A stretch of 64,000 nucleotides of DNA, taken from positions 8,449,100 to 8,513,099 of the forward strand of contig NC_049987.1 in the NCBI RefSeq assembly GCF_000003815.2, written 5' to 3'. The position numbers and the translations under genes were made by a program. Below are positions 2,226 through 58,732 of the stretch, in pieces. The notes under the pieces were generated by a model. The model was not told the DNA's origin. It ran no database searches and worked only from the letters and a program-made list of their open reading frames with translations. The stretch's first letter is position 1; each line of letters starts with the position of its first letter. The DNA is from Branchiostoma floridae (lineage: Eukaryota > Chordata > Leptocardii > Amphioxiformes > Branchiostomatidae).

Positions 2226-2301
2226 ACTACTACACAACCTCCAAGAGGACAACCGCCAATACAGAGGGCTGATGACATTGAACAAGATAAATGTATATTA
2301 A

Positions 2302-5097
2302 AGAGGGTCTGCATGCTCTTTTCCGTAAGGCGTAGGCAGGCCTTTTAATTTCGCGTAATTCGTAGGGAAGCTATAATTTCATTTCACGTAATTCGTAGTG
2401 AGGATGGAAAATTGACTGTAAAGCGTAGCCAGCGTAATCTAGCCTAAAAATTTCACGTAAAGCGTAACCTAGCCTAAAAATTACCCGTAAATCGTAGCCT
2501 GGTCTCCCAAATTTCATATGTCGAAGGGTAGTCTACCAGTGAATTTAGCCCCTCAAAACACGGAAAATTGCGTTTCAGATGATCAAGATTTCAAAATTTC
2601 CCTTGCAAATCCTTTCACATTCGGTCATCGACAAGCCAAAATATGTATCGGGGGCCTCGCCCTCACCTTTTGCCGTTAATAGGAATGTTATTGAAGGTAG
2701 CTAGCTTAGTCTGGCAGCAAAATTTGCCTATCAAAATGCAGGAAATATCATCTTAGAGGTTCAAGATTTCAAAATTTCCATGGTCCTCCCGTTGCGCCGC
2801 CTCGTGCCTTTGGCGCTCGAAATGCTGAAAATATGTTGGGGATGTGACGTGTCAACCTCAAACACCTTTTTTGCTGATAGAAATGTCATTAGATTTAGCT
2901 TTATATAATATCCATCAAATCAAAATTTTCTTACAAAAACTCAGGACACGGCGTTTCAGGGGGTAAGGATTTCGAAATTTTCCCGGACATCCCTTGCGAC
3001 GCCTCACCCCTTCGGCGCTCGACATGGCAAAAATAAGTTGTGTGGCGTCACCCTCAAAAGCTTACACTAAATCCCTGGGAATCTTTAATTACTAGTAGAT
3101 ATGCCATTTAACTTTTGTCTGCCAGCGAAAATTTACCCTCAAAATGCAGGAAATAGTGTTTCAGAGAGTCAAAATTTAAATCTTCCCAGCGGAGCCTCTG
3201 TCGAGTGTTGACAGCCTTCCAGAATTTTACAGTCAAAGGTGTTCCAGATGTTGCGGGTCCAATTATTGCAAAGTTGCAAGCGAAGATATAATGACATCGT
3301 GGCTCGACATTTTCTTACAACAGAATTCGTTTGGTTTGATGTAGTCGGTAGATTTCTTTCCCTTCACTGTTGCAGGAGGCGTACGTATACTTCCGAACTA
3401 ATCTATTTGTACACAGTCGTCGTGACAGAGATGAGTCTAAACATGCAGGTAGTTCATGTGGTGGCGGTCATCTTCGGGCTGATGCTCAGTGTCAAACTCA
3501 TCACCATGGGGATAGTGTAATCAGGTATAAACTATTATTTAGGTTATTATACTAGTTAAACCACTATTATTTTTGTGACATGGCCAAAGAATTGTTTCTA
3601 GAGTATTCGCCTTTTTATTATGTTAAGTAGTGTTCTATCCGCTCCCAGCCCTTCTAACAGAGTCTTTTCGCAGTATCTTTCTGTAGCACTTCATCTCCAG
3701 GACCTGGATTCTGCGGCTGTCACTGGCGTGTAGCCCTGACTCATAGTAGTCATGGGTTACCACGTACACACAACACGGGCAGTGCTCCCAGGTTACATCT
3801 AGAGTTCGGAGGGCTGCACGAGCTGTTTCTAGGCGTATACTGACAGCTATAGTTGGCTATTTGTTCTATTGTGGGCATGAAGTACTTAGGTCCTGAGAAT
3901 TGTAGTTGTTCTTCTCGTCAGTACTCTCCAAGCAGAGGTTAGGCTCAGGCTGTTTTTTAACGTTTTTTTTAGTCGTTTTTATCGGGCTTTCGATTTTGTA
4001 TTATATCTTGCCGCGGCCGGACACAGCGTAAGAAAAATGACAAAATAGAAAGCCCGATAAAAACGACTAAAAAAACGTTAAAAAAAACATCCGGACCCGA
4101 AGCTCTGCGTTGGAGAGTACTGGACGGGTGGCTGTTACTTGAATGGGCCTCTGGGTCAGCGCCATTCTATGAACGATTTCTCCTTGCTGTGTCCCTAATT
4201 GTCATGCTCCACGGGACCTAACACTGTGAAGTTACATGCACAAAACACTGAAGTGCTCAACGAGTGGTGACTTGCAACCAAAGTCTTCTCGATAGCATAA
4301 ATCACAACATGCCGATCATTTCGGCTTTAACTTTCTGGGAATCTGTGCCACGACTCTGTGCGATATGACAACGGTCAACACGAGTACTATGCAGATACGA
4401 TAAGCTGTTGAAAATTTCCATCTAATTACGGACAGACTACTATAGTTACATATGCAAAAGGCTATTATCTCCTTCAGTCTGTTCATTCGTGATTCATCAA
4501 TCACCGGTCTAACCAGTTTTTAGGCATAAAGGCAGCTCCGAGTCCTACTTCCTACATACCAGACCATCTAAATCTACACGGGCTGTTCTCGGCATTGACA
4601 GGTAAAACTGCAGTCAAACGTTTATCTTCACTATTTGTTTGCATTGTAGTAGTTTCGTACTCTACAGAACGTTTAAATCGATAACACCAATTCGGTAACA
4701 TTTGTAACTTGTTCTTTATGTATCCGGATTTTCTTGTCCGGCTTAACTTGGTCACTCCCAATCCCTACATCCGAATGCCTGAGAATGCAGAGAATGAGTC
4801 AAAGCCTGTGTAGGCTTACGTGTGTTCATAACAACACCTACATGTATCTACTCGTTGATTTGTATTTGAGTCAATAACAGAAAAAGCAAGACAGAACATT
4901 CAGGCCGACTCTAGTATGTGGTTCATCTTTACGCTTGACAGGAAAATTGGGCAACATCTTTAAATAGCGTAAACCGTTGCCAGCCTTTCTGAATTTAGCG
5001 TAAAACGTTGCCGGCCTTCGTGAATTTAACGTAAAGCGTTGTCGACCGTCCCGAATTTAGCGTAAAGCGTTGTCAGGACCCTCCATGCAGACCCTCA
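2302..5097. mobile_element. TTAA-flanked DNA transposon, non-autonomous
   Basis: The left end is AGAGGGTCTGCATG (2302-2315) preceded by TTAA (2298-2301). The right end is the inverted match CATGCAGACCCTCA (5084-5097) followed by TTAA (5098-5101). The 13-bp core GAGGGTCTGCATG is identical at both ends. Inward of each end is a short array of about 30-31 bp units, each with two CGTWA-like motifs 6-7 bp apart (left: 2324, 2354, 2387 and onward to about 2500; right: 4967, 4998, 5029, 5060). No transposase frame is visible in the 2.8 kb. TTAA targets are used by piggyBac and Kolobok superfamilies; the G-rich terminus suits Kolobok better, which is inference. Confidence 0.7.
3921..4120. mobile_element. 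foldback/MITE with long inverted arms, nested in the TTAA element
   Basis: Arms of about 70 bases at 3921-3992 and 4049-4120 are near-perfect inverted copies, starting GTACTCTCCAA and including a T-rich core that ends in ATCGGGCTTTC. The loop is about 55 bases and contains a CCGCGGCCGG stretch. The outermost CTCCAAGCAGAGGTT motif is shared with the hairpin at 10423-10507. Confidence 0.7.
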
Positions 5098-5101
5098 TTA
5101 A

Positions 5102-5317
5102 AGAGGGTCTGCATGCCTTTTTCCGTTAAGCGTTACGAGCCATTTTAATTCACCGTTAATCGTTACCGTCCCGCTCGAATTCAACGTTAATCGTTATCGG
5201 TATATTCTTCGTGAAGCGTTATTGGTCGTTTTAATTCAACGTTAATCGTTATTTGTTATCCCGAATTCACCGTTAAGCGTTACCAAGAAATTCATCGTAA
5301 CCCGTTATACACACGAA
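5102..5317. mobile_element. solo end of a second TTAA-family element
   Basis: Directly after the TTAA at 5098-5101 a second AGAGGGTCTGCATG end begins. It is followed by six or seven units of about 30 bp with the core CGTTAAGCGTTA (5123, 5153, 5184 and onward to about 5310). No matching right end is seen before the zinc-finger gene at 5513, so this looks like a truncated copy abutting the complete one. Confidence 0.6.
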
Positions 5318-5512
5318 GTCGAATGTCAGATGGAGCCCCGGCTACAAGTGGGTGAGGTTTTAACGTCATTACGATCCGATGGGAGTGGAGCCAGGGCAGT
5401 TATTTTAGTAACTTTGCCCTTTTTGTATCAGCAAAAAGAAATAATCTGGACTCTGTTGTTGCATTCCCGATTGTTGTGTTCTTTCAAACTTTTTCTCTAA
5501 TCTAGTTCAGAC

Positions 5513-6724
5513 ATGGCAGAGACAGGTGATGGGTCTCCTACTGCTGTTCCACAGAACCACTGTGATGGGTCTCCTACTGAAGTTTTATTGGACAGAGATG
5601 CTAGTCCGTTTGAAGACAAGCTGACAGGAAACAAAGGTAGTTTGGACAAAGAGCCAGAAACACAAACTGGAGAGAAACCCTACATGTGTGGGGAGTGTGG
5701 GTACAGGACAGCTCGCAAGTCCGACTTATCCAAACATATGAGAACTCATACTGGTGAAAAACCCTACAAGTGTGACCAGTGTGAGTTTTCTGCTGTGCAG
5801 AAATGTAATTTGGACAGCCATCTAGCCAAACACACCGGTGAAAAACCCTACATGTGTGGGGAGTGTGGGTACAGAACAGCTGACAAGCGTAACCTATCCA
5901 GACATATGAAAAACCATACAGATGACAAGCCCTACATGTGTGGGGAATGCGGGCACAGATCAGCTCAAAAGTCTGACTTATCCAAACATATGAGAACTCA
6001 TACTGGTGAAAAACCCTACAAGTGTGACCAGTGTGACTATTCTGCTGCTCAGAAATCTACCTTGGACCAACATCTAACAAAACACACTGATGAGAAACCC
6101 TACATGTGTGGGGAGTGTGGGTACAGGACGGCTTGGAAACCTCACTTATGCCGGCATATGAAGACTCATACAGGAGAAAAGCCGTACAAATGCGACCAGT
6201 GTGGCTATTCTACTACTCAAAAGTGCAATTTAGACAGCCATATAGCCAAACACACCGGCGAGAAACCTTACATGTGTGGGAAGTGCGGGCACAGGACAGC
6301 AGACAAGGGTAATTTGTACAGACATATGAGCACTCATACAGGCAAAAAACCCTACAAGTGTGACCAGTGTGACTATTCTGCTGCACGGAAATACACCTTG
6401 GACAACCATCTAGCAACACACACCGGTGAGAAACCCTATATGTGTGGAGAATGTGGGCACAGGACAGCTAACAGAGCTAACCTATACCAACATATGAGAA
6501 CCCACACAGGTGAAAACCCCTACAAGTGTAACCAGTGTGACTATTCTGCAACAAAGAAATGCCATTTGGACGAACATCTAGCCATACACACCGGTGAGAA
6601 ACCCTACATGTGTGGGGAGTGTGGGTACAGGACAGCAAGGAAGTCTGCCCTATCCAAACATATGAGAACTCATACTGGTGAGAAACCCTACAAATGTGAC
6701 CAGTGTGACTATTCTGCTCAGTAA
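5513..6724 (+). CDS. C2H2 zinc-finger protein with 12 complete fingers
   Basis: The ATG at 5513 follows a pyrimidine-rich acceptor (TCTCTAATCTAG, ending 5503), the same layout as the gene at the left edge. The 403-residue frame has a 56-residue finger-free N-terminus, then 12 tandem fingers of exactly 28 residues (57-392), each with CX2CX12HX3H and TGEKP-type linkers. Fingers alternate between a YMCGECG type and a YKCDQC type, so the repeat unit is a two-finger 168-bp module. The alternation breaks once, where fingers 3 and 4 are both of the first type. The frame stops at residue 403, 11 residues into finger 13, because of a small insertion. Nuclear DNA binding is expected; the target is unknown. 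Further coding exons are not seen. Confidence 0.85.
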
Positions 6725-6960: not shown

Positions 6961-7015
6961 AAGGACAACAGAAGTTATGGTATAGATATACATTGAACAA
7001 AACAGATAGATGTAA

Positions 7016-8461
7016 GAACACGGCTTGTGTCTCACGCCATTATCAGTAACTGTGTCACAGTTAAGAACACGGCTTGTGTCTCACGCCATTATCAGTAACT
7101 GTGTCACAGTTAAGAACACGGCTTGTGTCTCACGCCATTATCAGTAACCGTGTCACAGTTAAGCTTGTGTCTCACGCCATTATCAGTAACTGTGTCACAG
7201 TTAAGAACACGGCTTGTGTCTCACGCCATTATCAGTAACCGTGTCACAGTTATAAGAACACGGCTTGTGTCTCACGCCATTATCAGTTACCGTGTCACAG
7301 TTAAGCTTGTGTCTCATGCCATTATCAGTAACCATGTCACAGTTAAGAACACGGCTTGTGTCTCACGCCATTATCAGTAACCGTGTCACAGTTAAGAACA
7401 CGGCTTCTGTCTCACGCCATTATCAGTAACCGTGTCACAGTTAAGAACACGGCTTGTGTCTCACGCCATTATCAGTAACCGTGTCACACTTGAGAACACG
7501 GCTTCTGTCTCACGCCATTATCAGTAACCGTGTCACAGTTAAGAACACGGCTTGTGTCTCATGCCATTATCAGTAACCGTGTCACACTTGAGAACACGGC
7601 TTCTGTCTCACGCCATTATCAGTAACCGTGTCACAGTTAAGAACACGGCTTCTGTCTCACGCCATTATCAGTAACCGTGTCACAGTTAAGAACACGGCTT
7701 CTGTCTCACGCCATTATCAGTAACCGTGTCACAGTTAAGCTTGTGTCTCATGCCATTATCAGTAACCGTGTCACAGTTAAGAACACGGATTGTGTCTCAC
7801 GCCATTATCAGTAACCGTGTCACACTTGAGAGCACGGAGTGTGTCTCACGGCATTATCAGTAACCGTGTCACAGTTAAGAACACGGCGTGTGTCTTATGC
7901 CTCTATCAGTAACCGTGTCACAGTTATAAGAATACGGCTTGTGTCTCACGCCATTATCAGTAACCGTGTCACAGTTAAGAACACGGCTTGTATCTCACGC
8001 CATTATCAGTAACCGTGTCACAGTTAAGAACACGGCTTGTGTCTCACGCCATTATCAGTAACCGTGTCACAGTTAAGAACACGGGTTGTGTCTCATGCCA
8101 TTATCAGTAACCGTGTCACAGTTAAGAACACGGCTTGTGCCTCACGCCATTATCAGTAACCGTGTCACAGTTAAGAACACGGCTTGTGCCTCACGCCATT
8201 ATCAGTAACCGTGTCACAGTTAAGAACACGGCTTGTGTCTCACGCCATTATCAGTAACCGTGTCACAGTTAAGAACACGGCTTGTGTCTCACGCCATTAT
8301 CAGTAACCGTGTCACAGTTAAGAACACGGCTTGTGTCTCACGCCATTATCAGTAACCGTGTCACAGTTAAGAACACGGCTTGTGTCTCACGCCATTATCA
8401 GTAACCGTGTCACAGTTAAGAACACGGCTTCTGTCTCACGCCATTATCAGTAACCGTGTCA
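7016..8461 (+). repeat. 49-bp minisatellite, about 30 copies
   Basis: Thirty units carry the core CCATTATCAGTAACCG. The main unit is 49 bp. A recurring 42-bp variant lacks AACACGG (for example at about 7161, 7303 and 7737). Each unit has ACACGG near its start and CCGTGT near its end, an inverted pair that could fold. In some early units the junction reads AACTGTGTCACAGTT, a 15-base palindrome. Copies at the right end (about 8100-8460) are the most uniform, while the left and middle carry more variants. There are no unique spacers. Confidence 0.95.
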
Positions 8462-10205: not shown

Positions 10206-10422
10206 GGTAAGTCAGCCATACCCAAAGTAAACCAAGCTATGAACAGGTGATCGAACACATGGGACATATAACATAATACAAACGAATGATTTCAGATCAA
10301 GATATTACTGATATTTGTATGGGCTTTTTCCCAACTGTTAATCGACATGGGACATGTGTAAAGCACAGAGTTGTTGAGCCTCATGTATAATGTATTTCGC
10401 TCTCCCTAGTAAAGTTAATTCT

Positions 10423-10507
10423 CTCCAAGCAGAGGTTCGGCTTCGGCTGTCTTTTGACGCCCTAAGAAACATGTCAAAGATAACCGAAGCCTAACCTCTG
10501 CTTGGAG
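10423..10507. mobile_element. short hairpin MITE with CTCCAAGCAGAGGTT ends
   Basis: CTCCAAGCAGAGGTTCGGCT at the left is inverted at the right as a near match ending CTCTGCTTGGAG; the arms are about 35 bases with a short loop. It shares its termini with the larger foldback at 3921-4120. Confidence 0.65.
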
Positions 10508-28100: not shown

Positions 28101-28155
28101 TGGTCTGTGTTTCCTTGATGATGATGATTTTACAGCATCAACGAAACACAGACCA
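28101..28155. other. 20-bp-stem hairpin around the Helentron stop codon
   Basis: TGGTCTGTGTTTCCTTGATG (28101-28120) is inverted at 28136-28155 with one mismatch. The 15-base loop contains the stop codon of the helicase-endonuclease frame (28130-28132, minus), and the proximal arm encodes its last residues. Confidence 0.75.
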
Positions 28156-30679
28156 TGTCATGGTCGGAATAATATGTGTCCATGACACTGACGAGCACAT
28201 TGTCCTCTTTAAGGCCTCGGACATAAACATGGTCCAGAAGAGCACCACTGTCAGTTGTGGGAAATTTAACGTGTTGGCTAAAGCCAAAATGTCCCATTGC
28301 AGCCAGAATTTTTGGAGGTGGATGTTTCAAGAGGTCAAAATTAAAATCTCCAAGAATAATTGTCAATATGTCACTGGGAAGTTGTTCCAACAGTCTTTGC
28401 AGTCTGTCGATAAAGGATTCTTCTGGTAAGGACGGTGGTCTGTAGATGTTGACAATGTTGACTGTAGTGGATGCTTTGGTGACAGTGGTGGCTGTGCACT
28501 CAAGTCCACCGACTTCAATACGAAGCTGTGTGGGAGAGATGTCCTGTTTAGCAACCGTCATCACTCCGCCTCCTCTTCCAATTCTGTCTGCTCTGAAGGC
28601 CTGTGATTGTGGTAGGAAAGGTTCAATCTGCTGATTTGGGTACAAGAAGGTTTCCACGAAACAGAAAACATCAACGGGAAGTGTTGTCCTGTCTGCTGTC
28701 AAGTCTTGCAGATGTTCTAAGTAGGATCGTATATTTAGAAAGTTGATGTTAAGAGATGTTCCATCTGTAGTGGAGGAAGACAATTGGGATGCGTCTAATA
28801 AAGGCCGTTGTTGTAAACGCTTCATTTCCTTGATTATGGCTGAATTCACACGAATTGCACTTCTTTTGAATCCCAAAAGATATAATCCATTTAAGGTTTT
28901 TACACGGCTTAAAGCGACGTAACATTGGCCAGGCATGAAACCACCTTTGCCCTCCATGGAGACTACAATCTTATCCAACGTCTGACCTTGTACCTTGTGG
29001 ATAGTAGAGCCCCACGATAACGATAATGGAAATTGAGTTCGTTGGGCCTGGACCGACTGTCCGTTTGTATTGATGGAAAATTGGACAGTTTGTTTTTTGA
29101 TGGGTACAGCATCTGGGTATGTTTGTTTATATTGACTGTTGGATATAGTTTGCTTGCCAGCATTGTCACTGTCAAATCTAACCAGGATGGTATGAACTTC
29201 AAGGCCTGTGTTATCAATGGCTATCACCGTACCTAACGATCCGTTGACAAGTCCATCCGAGACATCAATGTTTGTAGTCACCATGACTCTCGACCCTGTT
29301 GCTATGGACAAAATTTCTCTCAAGCCACTTTGCTTAGGAGGAATGGCAACAGTTGTTGTATTAGTTAGAATGTCTTTCTTGGAGTCAATGGCCTTGATAT
29401 GAAATACCATGTTTGATAATTTGTTTAGGTGTGACATATTGTGTTCATCAACTTCTTTGTTCGTCCTGAAGACATGCAATGCTTCAGATGGATAGCTAGG
29501 GTCAGTTTTACAAATGACTCTGGACTTGAGAACATTTATGTCTTCCTCTGTGCNNNNNNNNNNNNNNNNNNNNNNNNNNNNNNNNNNNNNNNNNNNNNNN
29601 NNNNNNNNNNNNNNNNNNNNNNNNNNNNNNNNNNNNNNNNNNNNNNNNNNNNNNNNNNNNNNNNNNNNNNNNNNNNNGTTGTCTGAAGGAAGGCTGAAGA
29701 CATGATTCTGGCGGACGGGCTGCAGTTGGAACAGGTCTCCCACGGCCAGAATGCTTACCCCTCCAAAGCGGGAGTCAGGGTTGGAACTGCCACAGATGTC
29801 TTGCAGCCGACGGTGGAGGTGATATAGAAGATCTGCACCGACCATCGACACCTCATCCACAATGAGAAGTTTCAGCTTTCCTAACCGTGAGCGAAGCGTG
29901 TTCAGTTTGTCGCTGCTTAATGGCTGGTAGTCCTTGTTCTTCTTCAGACCACAGCTAAGACTGAAAGCTGAGTGCAAGGTCATTCCGTTGATGCCAAACG
30001 CTGCCGTTCCAGTGTAAGCAGTAAGTATAACTGGCAGGTCGTTTGGATCAAAGTAACGCCCGGACAAAGGTGTCAGAAGTCTCAATGTTTCATGGTGAAC
30101 CAACTTTATGATGTGGCTCTTACCAACTCCACCGGGACCACTTAAGAATGCTGTATATTGTGGCGCAGGCTGTCCATGTTTCAAAGCTATGATAGTGTCC
30201 TTGCACCATTTTCGATGGAACCTGAGTACTTCCATTTGTTTACTGTTCAGAGACCGCATCATGGTTCTGTATTCTTGGGAATCCATCCGCACTTTATTCA
30301 GTTCTGCTGTAAAGCGCGCGTGGAGTTCCTGACTATGATTGGATGTTGACTGCGGTGCAAGGTCGATGTTTTCGTGCTGATCTTCATCTGACATCTCTCT
30401 CTCCACAGTTATTCCTTCCGCTAGCTGTTCGGCCTGTTCGAACTCCACATTGGGCGCAACACTATCCCATATGTCTTCTGGGGGGCCATTATGCAGCAGG
30501 TCATCATATGCTGCATCGATGGCATCAGCGTTTATGCTGAACATGGCTTCATTAGTACGCACCGTATTGATCACGTGCTCATAGTGGCCTTTGTAAGATG
30601 GATAGCCGGCTTTCAGGTCCACTTCTTCATCCCGCCAGGGATAATACAGCATGAGTAGATTCCTGTACCTCTCCTCAGC
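28130..30679 (-). CDS. Helentron SF1/Pif1-like helicase fused to an EEP endonuclease domain
   Basis: The frame starts in or before the gap at 30680-30779 with ERYRNLLMLYYPWRDEE, a known Helentron block. Walker A GPGGVGKS is at about 30116-30139 and Walker B with VDEVSMVG near 29840-29865. GDLFQLQPV follows at about 29715-29745. After a 124-base gap (29554-29677), LSWGSTIHKVQGQTLD and QCYVALSRV complete a Pif1-type helicase. The C-terminal 220 residues are an endonuclease/exonuclease/phosphatase fold: FLNIRS near 28740, VETFL, GGGV, GDFNFDLL at about 28328-28351 and SDHDMV at about 28152-28168, the last two holding likely metal and catalytic residues. The fusion of helicase and EEP domain is the hallmark that separates Helentrons from canonical Helitrons. 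The frame is otherwise intact. Confidence 0.9.
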   Translation of the reverse strand, partial: AEERYRNLLMLYYPWRDEEVDLKAGYPSYKGHYEHVINTVRTNEAMFSINADAIDAAYDDLLHNGPPEDIWDSVAPNVEFEQAEQLAEGITVEREMSDEDQHENIDLAPQSTSNHSQELHARFTAELNKVRMDSQEYRTMMRSLNSKQMEVLRFHRKWCKDTIIALKHGQPAPQYTAFLSGPGGVGKSHIIKLVHHETLRLLTPLSGRYFDPNDLPVILTAYTGTAAFGINGMTLHSAFSLSCGLKKNKDYQPLSSDKLNTLRSRLGKLKLLIVDEVSMVGADLLYHLHRRLQDICGSSNPDSRFGGVSILAVGDLFQLQPVRQNHVFSLPSDNXXXXXXXXXXXXXXXXXXXXXXXXXXXXXXXXXXXXXXXXXXTEEDINVLKSRVICKTDPSYPSEALHVFRTNKEVDEHNMSHLNKLSNMVFHIKAIDSKKDILTNTTTVAIPPKQSGLREILSIATGSRVMVTTNIDVSDGLVNGSLGTVIAIDNTGLEVHTILVRFDSDNAGKQTISNSQYKQTYPDAVPIKKQTVQFSINTNGQSVQAQRTQFPLSLSWGSTIHKVQGQTLDKIVVSMEGKGGFMPGQCYVALSRVKTLNGLYLLGFKRSAIRVNSAIIKEMKRLQQRPLLDASQLSSSTTDGTSLNINFLNIRSYLEHLQDLTADRTTLPVDVFCFVETFLYPNQQIEPFLPQSQAFRADRIGRGGGVMTVAKQDISPTQLRIEVGGLECTATTVTKASTTVNIVNIYRPPSLPEESFIDRLQRLLEQLPSDILTIILGDFNFDLLKHPPPKILAAMGHFGFSQHVKFPTTDSGALLDHVYVRGLKEDNVLVSVMDTYYSDHDMVCVSLML
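29554..29677. other. assembly gap, 124 N, in the Helentron helicase
   Basis: The gap removes sequence between helicase motifs; the reading frame is the same on both sides if the size is real. Confidence 0.98.
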
Positions 30680-30779
30680 NNNNNNNNNNNNNNNNNNNNN
30701 NNNNNNNNNNNNNNNNNNNNNNNNNNNNNNNNNNNNNNNNNNNNNNNNNNNNNNNNNNNNNNNNNNNNNNNNNNNNNNN
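30680..30779. other. assembly gap, 100 N, at the start of the Helentron helicase exon
   Basis: The last Helentron splice acceptor probably lies here or just to its right. A run of 14 G at 30914-30927 is nearby. Confidence 0.95.
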
Positions 30780-31094
30780 AAAGAATACATAGCATGGTTA
30801 GCATGTTGAATACCAATGCTGAAATGACCAAATGCAAAGGACTTCTCAATGAGGTAAATTTTGATGTTGTTTTAGTGTCATTTAAGGTCCTAAAGAGTGG
30901 TGCCTGAGCCCTTGGGGGGGGGGGGGGTTCTGAAAATACCATCTTGAATAATGCATGGACCTTGATTTTTTTCAGGTGGTACCTTATTGTCTAAAGATAA
31001 TTTATGCGAATTGGTATGACGTCATGATTACGTCATCGAGAGCTATATGGCCACGCCCATTTTTAGAAAAAAAAATGCTAAAAAGGGTTGTGCC

Positions 31095-31204
31095 CTAGCC
31101 TGGGTACCATTCATATTGTATTCTACCGTTACACTAAATAATAATATTTTTTAGGGATGTGAGTGTAAGGAGCCCCGGTAGAAATAGGATGGTACTCAGG
31201 CTAG
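31095..31204. mobile_element. hAT-like MITE in a Helentron intron
   Basis: CTAGCCTGGGTACCAT at the left is inverted as ATGGTACTCAGGCTAG at the right. Immediately outside are GTTGTGCCC (left) and GTTGCGCCC (right), a 9-base direct repeat with one mismatch, consistent with an 8-9 bp target duplication. The shorter copy at 51660-51703 has the same ends. Confidence 0.7.
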
Positions 31205-31313
31205 TTGCGCCCCGCTTGTCATTCAAGTATTATCATCGATACTTTGCAGTAATGTAGATAATGGGTGATTTTATACAAACAGATCTGTGCAATTGGTGAA
31301 GTTAATGACATAC

Positions 31314-33341
31314 CTGATTATGCAGTATTGTCTGCGCCTCTTCATGTTGCCTAGGTTGTTTCGCAACTTGATGACAAGTGGATGCCTCTGTATGCCGTCT
31401 TGGTCGTCCCTTTCATTGTCGTCTGGGCCATCTAGCACATCTGGAATGTGGTCAGTTTCTCCGTCAGGTGGATCCCCTACACTAGTGTTGTAGGTGGCTC
31501 TAAATTCAGCGTAGGACATTTCTTCAAGTTCACTCGGTCGGGACGCGTACCTGTCAAGGGCCGAAGTGCAGAAGATATTGTCGTCGTTGTCATCCATACT
31601 TTCAAGGACATGTCGATGATTGAGCATTGATACGCGTTTGTCTCTTGTGGCAGTGTTGATATAGACTACTTGTCTGCTTTTTCTTTGTAGTGGTAGAGAT
31701 AGTAATCTGTAGACTGCCTCCTGTGCGCTCACCTCTCTGTTGTTAAGAAACGCTGACCCAACCTTTCTCAGTTTTGATTTCAAGTCTTCGGCCTTACTTT
31801 CCTCCAACACTTTTTGTAGGAGCTCACTCATGGCTCGTTCTGCTTTTACCATGTAACTTGTTATGTACATTATGCACGAGTAAGCATCTAACATGTACTG
31901 AATATCCATGTTGGCCCGCCAAAGCTTCAAGATCGTGGGATTAAAGTGATTGATGTAGATTCAGAAGGTTGCCGTTTTAGAATGATCTGCTCGCCTGACC
32001 TTGTTAGTTTCAATGCCTGTTGGTATTCGTGTTGATTTACCTTGGCTTTTTGCAACAAGTTCTCTAATGATATGTCAGGAGATGTGTTTTTGTCTTCCAT
32101 GATGGTTCTCACTTTTCGGAGCACATCTTCCTTAGCTTGCAGTTCTTTTGTTACCATTGTCGCATCCGTCTCAGTTGAAGGTCTACCGATGATGGTATGT
32201 TTGCTTGGTGGATGAGGAAATCTGAACCTGCACAATCCGTTCCGTCTACATGTTTTTGAATGGACATGTTTTTGTAGAGACAATACCAACTGCCTCAAGT
32301 CGTCTTCCTTTTCGTCCGGAATTGTACATGTTTGATGTTGATTGATGAAGTTTATAACGTCTTCGTCACTATCAACTCCAACCTTCGGAGCATTCTTCAT
32401 CCACAGAATAGTGTGTGCATGTGGGGATCCTCTGGCCTGTAATTGATAATACAGAGTATTAGTAATGTATGATAACTTGGTTAGTGTTTATTTCTTATTC
32501 TATTTTGTCATTTTTCTTTCTTTTCTTTCTTTTTGTTTCATTCTTATTTCATTTTTTGCTGTCCCTGATATCAAATAAAGCCTGGGATGCACAGCAAATT
32601 TACAACTATTATCAATTGTGCATGGTAGTGTATATCTGACTTTTGCGATGACTGATCACTATACTACAGCTGAACACTGCGTTATGATCTGGCATTGCTG
32701 TGTTTGGTGATTGTATTAGAAGCAACCACAAGGGTGGGGCGTATTTTCTAGATGCATTAGATGTTTATAGATAATGTGTCACATTTATAAGTCTGTATGT
32801 GATGGTTTATGTGGATATATAATATAGTTTAAAAGGTGTCTTACTTGAAACTCTATCCTTATCATGTAGTCTTGAAGTTCACCGATTGGATGGCATTGTC
32901 CTCCTATGACCTCCTTGAAGAAAAGGTTAAGTCTGTGGTTGAATTGGCGGGCTGCCGTTACAGGGTTGGAGCGGAGCCATTTACATTTCTGTTCCCAAGA
33001 CATGTTCTTGACATCGTCGTCTGTGAGATATGTTCCATACTGGTGAGCGATACTCCGGATAACTTCCGGCCACTGCATGTCTGCTGCTGAGAGAGTTAGA
33101 AACCAGGTAGGAATTCCCAGCTGACGTACCATAGCCAGGAGGTCAAGGAGCACAGAGTTCCAAAAGGCTGGAGAGCCGCGTATGTTTTTCATGAATTTGT
33201 ACGCATGGTGTGTCCGTAGCATGGCTTGCACATTGACCACATTTTTCATAAGACCAGCATTTATTCTTTTGTTCTGGAATGTCTGGCCTCTAGTTTGTCC
33301 TAAGTTAATCTGTATGCTGTCAGCCACTTGCTTAGCTTCTG
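31314..33341 (-). pseudogene. Helentron Rep (HUH endonuclease) region, one frameshift
   Basis: Exon 32845-33341 (start in a gap) reads QTFQNKRINAGLMKN, FWNSVLLDLLAMVRQLG and TLSAADMQWPE, the N-terminal Helitron-like domain. A GTAAGA donor at 32844 and an acceptor at 32438-32437 join QARGSPHAHTILW in phase 0, giving the HUH motif (His-Ala-His, about 32409-32423). The segment to 31970 continues in frame, then a one-base loss near 31960 shifts it; the next frame has NHFNPTILKLWRANMDIQ and LDAYSCIMYITSYMVKAE, the tyrosine-containing KYR region (31830-31913). The exon ends at 31314 before GTATGT, after RRRQYCIIR, which should join a block starting with Tyr. HUH Rep proteins nick and join DNA for rolling-circle transposition; this copy is broken. 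Confidence 0.85.
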
Positions 33342-33441
33342 NNNNNNNNNNNNNNNNNNNNNNNNNNNNNNNNNNNNNNNNNNNNNNNNNNNNNNNNNNN
33401 NNNNNNNNNNNNNNNNNNNNNNNNNNNNNNNNNNNNNNNNN
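33342..33441. other. assembly gap, 100 N, in the Helentron Rep region
   Basis: A gap between the N-terminal block and the Rep block. Confidence 0.98.
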
Positions 33442-35055
33442 TCTTTATGCAAGAGACGCTGGTTGAAATATCTTTTTGCCGTTATTTTTCCTCGGTCGCT
33501 TATCGTCTCCTAGTCCTCCATGACCGAACGGGTACTTTGAAGGATTAGCAAGTTCTTCAAATTTGTCGTCTGTAAGGAATGCGCACGGTGTTTGATTTTC
33601 TCCAGGTGCGAGGGAGTAGATATTGTCCCCATCAGTGACTTCCTCTTCTTGCAAGAGGGTGTCATAAGGTATGCCTCTAAGTTTACTTGTTTGCTCAAAG
33701 GCAATTCTGTCCTCTTCATCTTCCATCGGCGTGGTGGTACTTTCGGCTTGGGAATCTTCATTGACGCCCATTTCATCGTCTTGGCCTCCTTCTCTGTCGA
33801 AGTTGGCCGTCTTCTCATGAGATTGAGATGGGTTGACTAATGCTTCCCACAACTCAGGATCATCATTTGCCCATTGAGTTTGCCAATCAGGGCAAATATC
33901 AACGTCCTTGTAAAGAGGATTGTTTTGCTTAAGCCATTTAATTGCTTCTGTCACTCTGCTAGGACGGATAAACTCGTACATATGATGTCCTTTGTAGATC
34001 AATTTTCTTTTAAGCTTCAATGGCACCACCTCAGCTGTAGCTGGAAGCCTAGGCAGGAGAGACATCACTGACTGCAATTTTGACGGCACGTTTACTGCAC
34101 TGCCATGGATGGATTTCTGGCCTCCCTTCGGTAACCCTACAAGTTTCATGAATGGAATTCGTTGGCTTATCAGCCTCAGTTCTAATGACCTCAGATCTTC
34201 CAGCTCAGGTGGCACTGGGTCAAGGTCTAGGCCATTATCCCATGACTGCACAGGGAGTTCTCCTTTTTTAAGTGATTTATGGCAAGTTTGACAAATCCAA
34301 GACTTACCATTTGTTTGCAGCTTACAAACAGATGCATTCTTTAATATCTTTTTTGTTGTTTTATTGGCTGAGTAGTTGCCAGCTTTCATTTCCATGACTG
34401 TTTCTCTATAAAGCAGTCGGTAGCATGATATGCAACTGTAAATTGGTCCTTCAGCTATTTTTAACCTAAAGCAAGCGAAACAGTCTTCTTGTCTCCTTTT
34501 TCTAACTTCATTCATTTGATTTCTCGTAGTTGCATGCCTTCTTTCAGCAGCCTCGTATGTCTCTTGTGCTCTTTTTCTTTTCTTGCCAGTCCTGTCACAT
34601 TGACGCCTTCTCTCTGCAGCCTCGTGTGTCTCTTCTGCCCTTCGTACTTTCATGGACGTTCTGTTGAACTGACGCCTTCTCTCTGTCACCTCGTGTATCT
34701 CTTGTGCTCTTTTTCTTTTCTTGCCAGTCCTGTCACAATGACGCCTTCTCTCTGCAGCCTCGTGTGTCTCTTCTGCCCTTCGTACTTTCATGGACGTTCT
34801 GTTGAACTGACGCCTTCTCTCTGTCACCTTGTGTGTCTCTTGTGCTCTTTTTCTTTTCTTGCCAGTCCTGTCACATCTGCGCCTTCTCTCTGCAGCCTCG
34901 TGTGTCTCTTGTGCTCTTTTTCTTTTCTTGCCAGTCCTGTCACATTGACGCCTTCTCTCTGCAGCCTCGAGTGTCTGTTGTACCCTTTGTTTTTTCATCA
35001 GGGCAGCTATCAGCTTCCCTCTCTGCTTTGTACTTCTAGACTTTAAGCGAGGCAT
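33442..35055 (-). CDS. Helentron N-terminal region with basic repeats and Cys clusters
   Basis: The start at 35055 (MPRLKSRSTKQ) is preferred because an acceptor-like TTTTTGACACAACAG lies just upstream; the frame itself is open to 35172. Residues after the start form six to seven tandem 23-residue units (69 bp, about 34540-34995) with the core AAERRRQCDRTGKKRKRAQ, strongly basic and probably helical. Two unit types alternate: CDRTGKKRKRAQ and FNRTSMKVRRAE. Cys pairs follow (CFACF, CISC, then CQTCHKSL), likely zinc-binding. Then comes the block QSWDNGLDL to RIPFMKLVGLPKGGQ, known from Helitron N-termini. An acidic stretch and KYPFGHGGLGDDK follow before the gap. The function of this part is not established; DNA binding is plausible. 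Confidence 0.8.
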
Positions 35056-35172
35056 ACTTTCACCTGTTGTGTCAAAAAGAAAGTTAATCAGTTCCAATGT
35101 CATAGAAACTGCTGAATTATCAACATAAAAACAATTTTTGGGAAAACTCTGTAATTTAGTATTCAACCCCAA

Positions 35173-36458
35173 GGAGAGATGTAGTCAGATTCATGTTTAC
35201 CAAAATTTTTTGATTTTATATACTAGGTCATATAACAGCAATTAGATATGTTGTGGACTTGATATCTACTGGGAGAGTTATATACATCTCAATCATCATT
35301 GTAAGTTGTACCCTTAACTGACTTTGGAGGCCATACACTGAAATTCTAATGTCAAGTACTCAAATTTGTAGCTGCTTTCAATGCCCACGAACATTTTGTA
35401 CCTTAATTTGACACATGTTTGGTACCTATTGTCCTTTAAAGTATGAAAGGAAGCTGTGAAGAGCTCCTGTTCAATATCAAGTGAAAATACCCACATGCTT
35501 TCAAACTTGGACAAAGGCATAGTTCTCACTCACTGACATGCTATAAAACTGCTTTGAGAGTACCACTCCAATGATTCATGAACCGTCCCTTTTCCCTCCC
35601 ACTCTCTAGTCAGGCTGTCTTGATTGTGGCATGAAATCCAGATGTTAGAATTACAATGCAACGTTTTGGGACATGGCACATGAAGGGGTTTGCAGTATAC
35701 CTACGACGTGGGTCCTGATGAATGTTTGGCTTTCGGAACCTTATTATTAAATTTTGATTCTGACACTGTACACAAATAAACATGTCATTTTCCCCCGGAA
35801 AATATACGTATACGTATGGTACATATAAGATTCCAAGAAAATCAAAATCAAGTAACCCCCTAAAGACCCTCTACCTGTTTACTTCCCCATTACCGTCAGC
35901 TCCTACATCAAAACCACTTTTTGAGCACCAAACAACAAAATCCAAAGACGAAAAAATCACAAGCTTCCCTTATTCTAATTACATTATACTTTATACAGCT
36001 GTGCAAAAGAACACAGCTTTGACCAACTGATGGTAGTTCAGGGGAAAAGTCTTGGAACTTTTCTTCTCTCTCTATGATAACGTACATATCAACTGTTCTT
36101 ACCTGTAACTTAGTTGATACACAGTCGCCTGTAGAATCACAAGACTTTCACTTGATCAATTGATTCCGTGCTCGCACGTTCTCCACAGAAGTTGTTGCTT
36201 CTAAATGCGCGTACGGTTGTCTCCTGGACTGAAATGTAAACTCCTTGGTGCAGAAAGGAAAATCACAACTGACATGTGTTTCCTGTCCTGACAGTTCTGC
36301 AGCACTGCCTGGCAGGCCATATAGGTCAGTAGCCATCTGGCCAGTGACCTAGCTTGACCTCCACAGGAAGTGGAAAGTGGATACGGCATCAACCATTGTA
36401 AAACCGTATGGGGAGAAAATAATGGCCCTTTTAAAGAATATAGACGATGTCGATATCA
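35173..36458. other. interval between the Helentron coding start and the foldback
   Basis: No recognised gene. It may contain the Helentron promoter and 5' end. A 62-residue minus frame at 36148-36336 has no known motif. Confidence 0.35.
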
Positions 36459-44692: not shown

Positions 44693-46490
44693 CATCATCA
44701 TCATCATCCTTTATTGATTTCAACATAGCAGACAAAATAGCAGCCTGAATAGCGTTGAAATTTACAACATAAAAACCGTATATATACAATAAGAAACAAT
44801 ATACTAAAGTAGTAAACAACATCTCCGACGTTAGGTAGCCATTGTTACTGCCTACATGTCTACAGTCTTGTTGTACAGCTTGATAGCTGTGTGCAGGAAA
44901 GAGTTCTGAAGTCTTTTAGTTCTAGCTGGGGGGATGGAGAAAGTGTTTTTGTTTCTCAGTGATCGTCCCGTGGCAGTTGATCTGGAAGGTGGAACCATGT
45001 CGTGTAGGGGATGGTCAACATCCAACATTTGTGTGAAAAGTTTGACAGCTGCATCCTCGCGTCGCGACTGGAGGGTGGGTAGGTCGGGCACATCGCGCCT
45101 GCCCGCTCGGCTGATGATCCGTAGAGCCCGCTGTTGGACTCTCTGCATTGCGCGTTCCTGTTCCTTGCTACAGCCTACAAGGAGGACATTACCGTACTCG
45201 AGGACTGGGCGCACGAGGGACATGTAGATAGTCACTAGGTCGGCGACACTGGTCCCTTGCTTTGCAAGTAGTCTCAAGAAGTGCAGTCTACGGGAGGCTT
45301 TAGTAACCATTGAGGTTACTTGTTCTTGCAGGGTGAGATTTTTGTCCAAGATGAAGCCCAGACCTTTTGCGGACGCGACCCACGGAACGCACACACCCCC
45401 GAGGGTTAACCTTGGTGGGCTGGGAACGGATCTGCAGACACAGATTTGTAGCAGTTGGCTCTTCTTCCCGTTTAGCAACATGTTGTTGGTGTCAGCCCAC
45501 GAGTCGAGATGAGATGTCTCTTCCTCAAGTGATTTGTCTTCGATGGCTTGAGGTACTGACAGAGTTCTGGACATTCCGACATCGTCCGCATAGCCCACAT
45601 TCATAGTGTCAGGATGTACTGTTGTCCTTGAGCTCATAAAGAGTAGGAAAAGGTACGGGGACAGTACACCACCTTGTGGGACACCAGACGTCGGTTCCTT
45701 CCAGGTACTGGCCACGCCATTGACTACTACCCTCTGACGCCGACCGCTGAGGTAGCTGTGGATCCAAGACACCATACGTGGACTGGCCTGGATATCGATC
45801 ACACGCTGTAGCAGTATGGCATGATCGACTCGATCGAAGGCTTTAGACATGTCAGCAAATAAAGCTCTGACCAGAGTTGGCTTCTTAGAATCCAGCGCAG
45901 TTAGCCAAGTTTGTACCATACGCACAAGAGCGATCGTAGTTGAAGAGCCCCTCATGTACGCGTACTGATCTTTAATGACGGCGCGTAAGGAAGGAAGAAG
46001 TCTCTTCAGGATGCATCGCTCCATCAACTTAGCCAGCACAGACAGTAGAGAAATGGGTCGCATGTCGCAAACATCAGTTGCTCCCGCGGACTTCGGGACA
46101 GGTGCAATGTTGGCTGATTTCCATATGAGGGGCACTGTACCGTCTTCGTACGAGGCATTGAAGAGGTGTGTTATGATGGGTGCAAGATCTTCAGCGTGTT
46201 CTTTAAGGATCCAGCTGGGGAGATCGTCCGGACCACTTGCCTTTCTGGGGTTGATGGACTTCAGCAAGGCTTTTACTTCTCCAATCGAGCAGAGTTCATG
46301 ACCACTGGCTCCACGTGGGAGAGGGAACAAGGAGAGTGGCCGGCCCTGGCACCAAGATTCGGAGAAGTGCTTGTTGGTGCTTTCTGCCACTTCCACAGCA
46401 GATAGTCCACCCGTTGTGACAGGCCCAGACCTCTCGCACGTTCTTCCAAGCTCCTTATTGATGCATGTTTGATAGATTGAAATGTTGAAC
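44693..46490 (-). mobile_element. 5'-truncated CR1/L2-type LINE with (GAT)n tail
   Basis: On the minus strand a reverse transcriptase frame runs without a stop from beyond 46396 to 44852. It contains INPRKASGPDDLPSWILK, RPISLL, ADMSKAFDRVDH, SGVPQGGVLSPYLFLLF and the catalytic YADD box (about 45583-45594), then the thumb (KGLGFILDKNL) and the C-terminal ending LYNKTV. The 3' end is AATAAAG followed by a short GATGAT run (44694-44713, minus), a tail type seen in CR1/L2 elements. The endonuclease domain and first RT motifs are missing, the usual 5' truncation. Open coding sequence suggests a fairly recent insertion. ATG at 46396 is simply the first in frame; in-frame coding sequence continues upstream to about 46480. 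Confidence 0.9.
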
Positions 46491-49400
46491 AGAAAAACAA
46501 AGTAGAAAAGTTTGTTGTGCTGCTAACAGACTTCCAAGTGACTCAGATTCTAGATAGAAGTACAAGTTTTGCCTGACAGAATCAAGAATGATGTCGACTT
46601 AAAGAAGTGTGTTGTACATCGCCCAAGGAGGTTTGGGGTAACTTCAGAGCAAGACAAACGATTAGTTTGTGTCCTTTCCAGAAAGGTCACAAAGAAGATA
46701 TGAATTAATCTCCGTATGTGCCCCAGTATCCATCATACATCGCATCGGGGACCATGTGTCGTTCTGTGGAGGACAGGGATGTATAGGATACACATAGATC
46801 ATACTAATTGCTAGTCGACAACAGTCCATTAACAATGTCCAAAGCCTTCAGGTGTCCTTTGGGTAAAACATATACCATATTTCTTCTGGATCCTTGAGGA
46901 CCCCTCGGGAGAATTTCAGACACATAAAGGCTGTGGAATCATCGCTTTAAGACTAGTTACGTAGTTCTTACAAACTTTCAGACTGTAAATCAATAGTAGG
47001 TATAATCAATATCAGCCAATCATATGTATAGTACTAGCGCACACACATTTCTGAGCTAGACACATAGCATCTATGGACATAGATTCATAGCATGCATGTA
47101 CTGTCATCTGACTTCGTCTAACAATAGTGCTAAATTGGATGGCAATGCGATGCCACATAGACAAGATGATGTATCAAGTACCAAGGGGAAGTTAGGAATT
47201 ATTTCCCTCGGTGACATTCAATAAGCCGATTTGGTTTTACCTGTCTCCGCCGGAGACTGATCTGAATCATTGGAGCGCCTCTGGAGTCATCGGTGTCCTC
47301 GTAACTAGGATCTGGTCAATACGGCTGACACTCAACATTTGCATTTAGCCGCTGGGAATGGCTTTCATGAATTGTTAAAAGAAAAAAAAATCTTTGATTC
47401 TCCTCAGGCTATAGTAACTTCACTGATAAATATAAAAAATTCACACGATGGAAATCTTGTTACTTCTTCTGGCAGACATAATGAATAGAGCTGATGGAGT
47501 AGCGCTATTTGATGCCTCATTGGGGTGGTTTTACGAGTGTGTGTACCTTTTTCTTGTATCGATTATATCGGGTGTAGAACACACACTCTTTCCGCCTTAC
47601 TTTAATCAATCACTACTGCCGCTACACACCAGCAATTTACAGGACATATCATTAAGTAGTTGGTGTATCAAGATACATCATAAGAGTATCCGTACATAGC
47701 AACAATTGGATCTATGTCGTAGGAAACAAAACACGGGCATATGTAATTTTTATTTTACTCAATTCCATTCATTTCATTTCATTTTTATCTTAGTCCATTC
47801 ATCTTTGTCTATATGATTTCCTTTATTCTTTTTATTCAGCTTTACAGATTTAAAAGGATATCAAAGGAGCCGGTAACAAAAGCAAAGTGGTTCCTCTACA
47901 AGGAAGACTCGTGACTGGTATAGAAATAAGTGGACGAAGTAAAGGAATGCAAAGACTGAACGACGCCAAACCAATGCTAATAGTCAAATGCAAGAAATGA
48001 TACTAAGAATTAAATAAGTACATGATTGAAGCGACATAGAGTAACAATATAATGATACAAAATAGCCAACAACAAAATGATTGATGAGACAAGTAGTGAA
48101 AAATCAAGTATCGCGTCGCTAGGCAGTGCTGGTTTATGTATTCTCGACACTGACCTTGTCTATTCAGAGGTAATTCTAGCCTATTGGATAATGATACAAG
48201 TGGATCTGAGAAAGCGCATCAAAAGAGAAAGAAGCTTATTGATATGCATCCGAGCAGCACATAACATCTTGTTGCTTCCACGTTGCACACCAGAAACAGC
48301 ATCGACAATGATGCAGCTGGCGTTGCCGCCTTGTCCATGAGAATAAGTATCAGCAGACGACCATTATTCTTGTCTACTGGCACTCAATACACGGCAGAGG
48401 TCGTGGTGGTATTGACACCATCGCACTTTGCGAGATCTATTCTTACTTACGGAAGCAATATTTCACAGGCGGAACGGGCGCTAGATGCCGCTTTGTGTAT
48501 GCACCAGCATGCTCGACGCGACCACTCAGGCAGGTCTGTCTGACGATTTCTCACCACCACGACTGGCAAAAGTCTCTCCGATTCCCCTCACATGACATGT
48601 GTAGTGGAGAATTACCTACAAGGGCGTTGTGACAAGTTCTCCGGAAAGTTGCGCCCTAACTACCGTAGATAGCATTGGTGACGATTAAGAAACAGCTTGA
48701 TGATACCGCATGAAGTAGAATGATAGCTTTCCCCTTAGTCCGCATCATTACACGATCATTAGTGTGCATGGGTTTTAGCATTGTATTCTAGCCAGGGGCG
48801 CCCAGTTGCATTCCAGTATCGAAGCTGACCGAACACAAGTTTGCCAATTAAGTAGAAGACATGCCAACAGATAAGTCATGCTCTGAATAGGGGTGTGTTT
48901 ATAGGATAAAAAGGAACGATAACTTTGTAGATGAGAGCCGACTAGAGTAGATCATTTCACCACCGAACGCAGAAGCCGAATATTGCAAACTTAGAGAAAA
49001 CAGATAATAGATCAACCATCGTATGTCCGATGGAAAACTTAATTCAAATCTCCAAATAAATGACAGAGTACGTGACATGTTGGAGTTGGATTTCGTTAAA
49101 CCCTCTCTCATCTATCACAAATCAGAAAATGTTGGACGTAAGAATTTGGACTGGATCCTATCCTTCTATAATGTGAAGGACGCCTTCGGAATAGTTGTGA
49201 ACATCAGACGAGAGCTCATTGTCATTCTTGACCAGCGCCCCTGATTGGAATATATGTGACCTCACGAGGGTGTAATGTTGAAAAGTGACTTTGTGTCAGC
49301 GAGATACCTTCCGTAATACCATCCCAAATCTCCTGGTCGTAGTATTTCTAGCTTAATGCCTTCATATTCTATCAGGCTGTACGTTTCACCACTCAAAATC

Positions 49401-57700: not shown

Positions 57701-58347
57701 GCCCATCCTTTGGATCGATTTATCCTGTTATTGACCTCTCTCTGGTCAGGCTTCCCCAACAGTGGTAAATTATCCCCGTAAATATGCCATGAGGCGGTCT
57801 CAAAGGTGGAAAAACACGAAGAGTGGGCTGCGAACCCTTAAATTAAGCGTTACTTAGGAGAAGTGGTATTGACCTCATAATGATGACGATAACAGTGAAG
57901 CTCCGGAAGCGGACCTGACCTGCATCCCTGTGTTAATGAACATCCGAGGATGTTCTCCCTTTGGACGATCAGATATTTGGCAACAAAATCAAGAGCTCGT
58001 CAAAAATTGTATCATGATGCTTGATGTAAAGCGGGCTAGCAAGATCTGAAGGGATTTGCATACTACAACCCCCCAACTCCTTCTTAATCCATCATCTGCC
58101 TTCAGAAACCAATCAGTACCTCTCTTTTGCAGCAATACCCGCCATGCACCGCGATGATCAGGCGTGGTGGGCGTGCTAAAGATGCACCTCGGCGGCAATA
58201 AGCCATGATGCAATCTTCCTCTGCTGTTTATCTGGAGGTTCTTTACTCAAGAGACGAGATAGAGACGACGGTGGCTCTGCGTGGAACAGGTGTATGGCAT
58301 TCGTCGTCCGCTACATTGTGACTAACGGTAGGAGACGAGGCAGTAGG

Positions 58348-58732
58348 ATGGAATATTCAGGTCTGTGGTCGTGTTCTCTCCTTCTTCTGACTGTACTGTC
58401 CACCGTCAGCGCTGCCTTTTACCGCAAACGGCCCGAAGCCACTGCCGTACTGGTGAACCACACGGCAACGTTGTATTGTGCTTTTGACGGCTTGGGGCCT
58501 ACGGACGAAGTGAACTGGTACTGGTACAACCCTGAAACGGACGACAAACTGTACCACATTTCTGCCAGAGGCCGAGTCGCCTCCGAGTTCTCCAGACATT
58601 CTATCGTGGGGAGTTCACGGCGGGGTGAGTACAACCTGAGGATACGGGATGTCCAGCCTGCCGATGAGGGGAACTACCGGTGTAGCGTCTTCACGGTACG
58701 GGACGCCGGCGATGCCAGGCTCACCGTTGTAG
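58348..58732 (+). CDS. first coding exon of an immunoglobulin-superfamily protein
   Basis: The exon encodes 128 residues plus one base and ends at a GTAAGT donor, phase 1, as is usual for Ig domains. The start at 58348 gives a clean signal peptide (MEYSGLWSCSLLLLTVLSTV, then SA at the likely cleavage site). An upstream in-frame ATG at 58294 would bury it. The Ig domain covers residues 23-128: N-glycosylation site NHT before the B-strand Cys (TLYC), core Trp in VNWYWY, RHSIVGSSRRGEYNLRI, and DEGNYRCSV with the F-strand Cys. The EYNLRI/GNYRC arrangement and the position as N-terminal domain recall Kirrel/nephrin-type adhesion proteins, but other IgSF families are possible. No further exon is visible to 64000, so intron 1 exceeds 5.2 kb. 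Confidence 0.8.

Follow-up and report, generated by a model that had tools for sequence, protein, structure and literature searches.

The window analysed here, that is, the whole stretch of 64,000 nucleotides from Branchiostoma floridae, contained two adjoining transposable-element sequences: E1, a 2794-bp non-autonomous element of a family designated A (2303..5096, + strand), with its L end on the left and its R end on the right, and E2, the left end of an element of a second family, B, truncated after 237 bp (5103..5339, + strand). The 13-bp terminal inverted repeat GAGGGTCTGCATG was exact at the L end of E1 (2303..2315, + strand), at its R end (5084..5096, - strand) and at the start of E2 (5103, + strand), bearing out the preliminary description of this DNA, which had reported three ends with one terminus. 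No further match with two or fewer mismatches was found in the window, the stretch between the two ends of E1 included; at this tolerance 7 of 100 shuffles also gave at least three matches, whereas the three in the window were all exact. E1 was flanked by the duplication ATTAAA (2297..2302 and 5097..5102), the right copy of which doubles as the left flank of E2.

Inward of each end lay an array whose unit, of ~30 bp, consists of an AATT box and a doubled CGTWA core. The left arrays of E1 (2324..2497, + strand) and E2 (5124..5307, + strand) comprised six and seven units, respectively, each including one core with a mismatch, and the right array of E1 (4968..5072, + strand) comprised four units oriented as in the left array. 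All 15 CGTWANNCGTW cores on the + strand of the window fell within these three arrays, which hold 17 units when one-mismatch cores are counted; the three cores on the - strand were isolated and lay outside them. The arrays and doubled core first described were present, with spacings mostly at the proposed 30-31 bp, but also at 25, 33, 55 and 69 bp. The AATT box, which played no part in unit selection, stood at -7 from the core in 12 of the 17 units (shuffled spacers: mean = 0.26, maximum = 3). Observed/expected CpG ratios reached 1.55, 1.90 and 2.93 in the arrays (0.81 in the window), partly by construction, since CG-containing cores define the arrays.

E1 aligned with five family A copies of ~1.1-1.2 kb (L021, L023, L034, L035 and L038), except for an insertion of ~1.74 kb (approximate limits 3228..4964) missing from the remaining family A copies in the comparison. 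Between 5103 and ~5339, E2 was 92-93% identical to three family B copies (L025, L026 and L037), with no match beyond, and its unit spacing was that of L026; no right array for E2 was found in the window, where a position matrix gave no further cluster on either strand. The best reading is that E1 arose when a family A copy later received the 1.74-kb insertion, and that E2 is a family B stump sharing the duplication of E1. As their junction was the sole genomic locus found with two perfect ends back to back within 30 bp (counts being lower bounds), it was taken as a single event and not as a system.

Within the insertion, a palindromic repeat of 204 bp (3919-4122; inverted arms ~82% alike) was related to a stretch at 10421-10507, matched loci that include L044, L045 and L049, and would be a separate MITE-like family; the remainder of the insertion had no match in the 53 fetched loci. 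Four diverged tandem copies of ~190 bp each also occurred inside E1 (2529-3190; starts near 2529, 2707, 2921 and 3117). The right 140 bp of E1 (4965-5096) shared 96-99% identity with four copies of family A, compared to ~83% for the interior, a contrast for which gene conversion, a chimeric origin or constraint are alternative explanations.

The surroundings of the elements held several other features. A C2H2 zinc-finger ORF (5513-6724) started ~170 bp after the end of the E2 stump, and its first 60 residues, used as the query, shared 51% identity at 92% coverage with REST of Branchiostoma lanceolatum, the sole match among 10 candidates. Upstream of E1, a tRNA-like stretch at 2160-2222 contained GGGTTCGATTCCCGG, which we take to be a B-box-like motif, and is perhaps a SINE; ARAGORN detected no tRNA and Rfam gave no match at the gathering score, this stretch included. 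Further along were a 49-bp satellite of ~30 copies (7013-8461), Helitron-like ORFs with PIF1 helicase, Helitron_like_N and DUF6570 domains (28130-35184, - strand), a reverse-transcriptase ORF (RVT_1; 44852-46522, - strand) and an immunoglobulin V-set ORF (58180-58806, + strand).

Abundance and target sites across the genome

In the genome searched (513,431,437 bp in 431 contigs), the end gave 2252 + 2318 matches, against 154 + 201 for the reversed control. The element family with conserved ends proposed from the window alone is therefore real and abundant. Its members measured mainly ~200 bp or ~1.2 kb; the array occupied much of the length of the small form, and larger forms carried arrays at both left and right. 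Among the matches listed for family A, agreement was exact over 44 bp at all 100 L places and over 51 bp at 50 of 100 R places, which suggests a young family. The terminal repeat string occurred in two papers, both unrelated as judged from titles and the starts of abstracts, and the family may well already be named in Repbase, which, like Dfam, was outside the scope of this search. Matches in other genomes were taken as chance: ten prokaryotic contigs had the end next to TTAA (nine without any core and one with a single core), and of three viral scans two gave none and one gave two (L011, with three scattered cores in an ORF-filled contig, and L012, with one core).

At one locus (L014; G000:C1:424794-424938), the terminal repeat was amplified into a minisatellite of five 33-bp units, each carrying GAGGGTCTGCATG or a one-mismatch form of it. 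The R ends of L061, L064 and L065, and likewise those of L062 and L063, sat in larger repeats with flanks that were also shared (91-99% identical pieces), these copies being carried along by other repeats.

Target sites were compared across 41 elements, namely 40 fetched with both ends plus E1, a sample drawn almost wholly from contig C1. The set omits the loci with one recognisable end (L042, L047, L049, L053, L058, L059, L061, L062, L064 and L065), one more pair from L032, loci L014-L017, which are tandem repeats, and L018-L020, which are redundant with L021 and L022. An exact 6-bp duplication flanked 26 elements, an exact 7-bp duplication three, and a 6-bp duplication with one mismatch four; seven of the eight elements without duplication came from loci fetched for an end lacking a perfect partner. 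The 26 exact 6-bp duplications were diverse in sequence, with T the commonest base at positions 1 (15 cases) and 2 (18 cases), and 25 of them ended in A or T. TTAA occurred in a single one, the ATTAAA of E1. It follows that the first base of the element is the G of GAGGG, the preceding A being part of the duplication, and that E1 spans 2303-5096.

The preliminary description had taken TTAA as the target and had fixed the boundaries by the TTAA flanks at 2298 and 5098. Those letters are present, but the repeated flank is ATTAAA and other copies carry 6-bp duplications without TTAA, so neither claim held. A target-site call that seemed perfect at one locus is hereby corrected, TTAA having fallen by chance within a 6-bp duplication, and for amphioxus genomics an abundant repeat now has defined boundaries, sizes and subfamilies.

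Orientation and pairing of the ends

The terminal repeats of E1 are inverted, yet both of its arrays read on the + strand, as does the array of E2. The same was seen across the 41 elements: cores lay on one strand only in all 37 elements with any core (four had none). When the genome was searched for the end together with nearby cores, as had been proposed, 519 perfect ends had an inward core within 4-30 bases (L-type; 236 + 283) and 519 had an outward core (R-type; 289 + 230), with no match for either reversed-pattern control.

Pairing was assessed with all 100 listed R places and with the 100 listed L places, of which 89 were typed (11 on contig C3 omitted). Among these matches, 59 of the 89 L ends faced an R end, which lay 175-215 bp away in 14 cases and 1020-1787 bp away in 45, and 29 had no facing end; the sole L-L pair was formed by two small copies lying next to each other in L032. 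For family A, the listings covered 100 L places (of 160) and 100 R places (of 143). Among the matches listed, 61 L-R pairs, no L-L pair and no R-R pair were counted, the commonest length being ~1.2 kb. Long L-R pairs among them included spans of 8509 bp (G000:C10:20188250-20196758) and 42884 bp, and for 39 of the 100 L ends no facing end was listed within 60 kb.

The elements thus combine the 13-bp terminal inverted repeat with a 6-bp duplication with T/A-rich edges and directional units of ~30 bp, and array polarity, overlooked in the earlier work, is a family trait. With hundreds of ends and two families, they offer a natural case for asking why some transposons retain directional, unequal ends.

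Conservation and possible role of the arrays

As the three arrays of the window differ in unit sequence, they had been thought to be re-homogenised separately by slippage between fixed termini. In the left array of family A (6 copies), units at the same position were 94% identical between copies (n = 80), compared to 64% between units at different positions of one copy (n = 109); the corresponding values for the four copies of family B were 95% (n = 30) and 62% (n = 50). This in-register identity contradicts re-homogenisation copy by copy. Slippage itself was retained in part, as the array was duplicated in at least one copy (L053, where it runs into an assembly gap). The units of the three arrays are indeed distinct, but the cause lies in the type of end, since they belong to a family A left end, a family A right end and a family B left end. 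The concerted array-wise change that grouping statistics within the window seemed to show is explained by the same three end types. The arrays remain in register as the element spreads, and they vary by family and between the left and the right end.

Mean ungapped identity among copies was 0.950 in the left array, 0.869 in the interior and 0.946 in the right array of family A, and 0.939, 0.847 and 0.876, respectively, in family B. Core columns also exceeded spacer columns (0.967 vs 0.933 in A; 0.941 vs 0.912 in B). These comparisons cover six A and four B copies, in which close pairs showed no difference, and in two of the three pairs involving L025 the right array (0.818) fell below the interior (0.889 and 0.905). 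Arrays mostly better conserved than interiors suggest working ends and make protein binding plausible, so that the transposase-binding role first assigned to them is kept as putative.

On this evidence, the sequences are probably non-autonomous lancelet (Branchiostoma) DNA transposons with directional, unequal ends, whose arrays would be putative sites for a transposase or an accessory protein. Such a protein, supplied by an autonomous relative, would recognise the arrays as binding sites and pair one L end with one R end, and each family would stem from its own founder, hence the differences in arrays between families. Unequal ends of this kind are described for piggyBac and piggyBat, which are reported to have asymmetric ends with subterminal binding sites, some subterminal sequences inhibiting activity (PMC11707139). 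Two observations fit this explanation poorly, namely the one-way arrays at both ends, which lack the mirror symmetry expected for simple transposase sites, and the growth of the array in L053.

Both would be natural if the arrays were passive minisatellites, a directional array having been trapped between terminal repeats and inherited without function. We regard this as the less probable course, although it deserves some weight: it yields the one-way orientation directly, it agrees with a small form that is largely array and with the duplication in L053, and internal tandem arrays on MITEs have been described for Xmix and Xstir of Xenopus (PMC6004289). The retained AATT box, and the higher conservation of arrays mostly over interiors and of cores over spacers, speak against it. 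A bolder proposal, which we hold to be doubtful, is a lineage outside the named superfamilies, whose transposase would require a directional iteron array of each kind, left and right, making the element polar as a whole; the smallest member would then amount to little more than a pair of inverted repeats enclosing binding sites that all point one way. It is improbable that the arrays are instead bound by host proteins, such as silencing or zinc-finger factors: the zinc-finger ORF just downstream of E2 and the CpG-rich arrays (in part a product of their definition) could be cited in favour, but that neighbour is present at one locus only, and sites for a host silencer would be expected to decay in a successful element. 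A TTAA-targeting element of Kolobok or piggyBac type with separately re-homogenised arrays agrees with the TTAA letters at 2298 and 5098, the array-specific cores within the window and the GA..TC ends, but is refuted for the copies examined by the duplications and by units kept in register, and retains next to no credence.

Relation to known transposons

Terminal inverted repeats, target duplications and many copies together identify the family as a DNA transposon, and E1 as non-autonomous, no transposase gene being present: none of its ORFs exceeded 102 aa, and a Pfam scan of nine of them at E-values up to 1 gave no convincing match. Kolobok elements, including the Xenopus T2-MITE/Xmix and Xstir array elements, share short inverted repeats with a purine-purine start, and their non-autonomous members may bear tandem arrays, but they duplicate TTAA, whereas the lancelet family duplicates 6 bp without TTAA (PMC6004289). 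Kolobok proper was rejected on that ground. Its ends follow a 5'-RR..YY-3' rule (PMC9587614) with which the GA..TC ends of the lancelet family agree, so the family may be a Kolobok relative with a different target. KolobokP, reported in three Branchiostoma species, resembles the present elements in host genus and in combining direct repeats with inverted termini; it differs in its terminal direct repeats, which are long (~450 or 660 bp) and each include inverted repeats, and in its duplications of 3-5 bp (PMC9587614). It was set aside, as no further end match between the ends of E1, and hence no long terminal direct repeat, was found and the duplication length differs.

PiggyBac and piggyBat likewise have asymmetric left and right ends, with subterminal transposase-binding motifs (PMC11707139), but piggyBac is characterised by a TTAA target and CC[C/T]T ends (PMC2872659), both absent from the lancelet family, and was rejected. 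IS3EU/GingerRoot shares the 6-bp target duplication but has TA..TA, occasionally TG..CA, ends (PMC10045372), and was ruled out by the GA..TC ends. Dada, whose targets are multicopy RNA genes, shares duplications of 6-7 bp, but Dada-U6 and Dada-U1 are described without terminal inverted repeats (PMC3706591), and the 13-bp repeats of the lancelet family ruled it out. The duplications of 4-10 bp given for the hAT, MuDR and P groups would allow the 6 bp observed (PMC3706591).

The full-length copies with a transposase for which the preliminary description had suggested looking were not found among the loci inspected. No autonomous copy was recognised in L041-L060, 20 loci (9.9 kb each) adjoining perfect ends without a nearby perfect partner, nor in L061-L065, where copies lay mostly within larger repeats. 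The former comprised ordinary copies, single ends and one copy with a nested ORF. In this last case (L048, 6151-9604), the copy was flanked by the duplication ATTACT, and its ORF of 1050 aa looks like a LINE-like reverse transcriptase.
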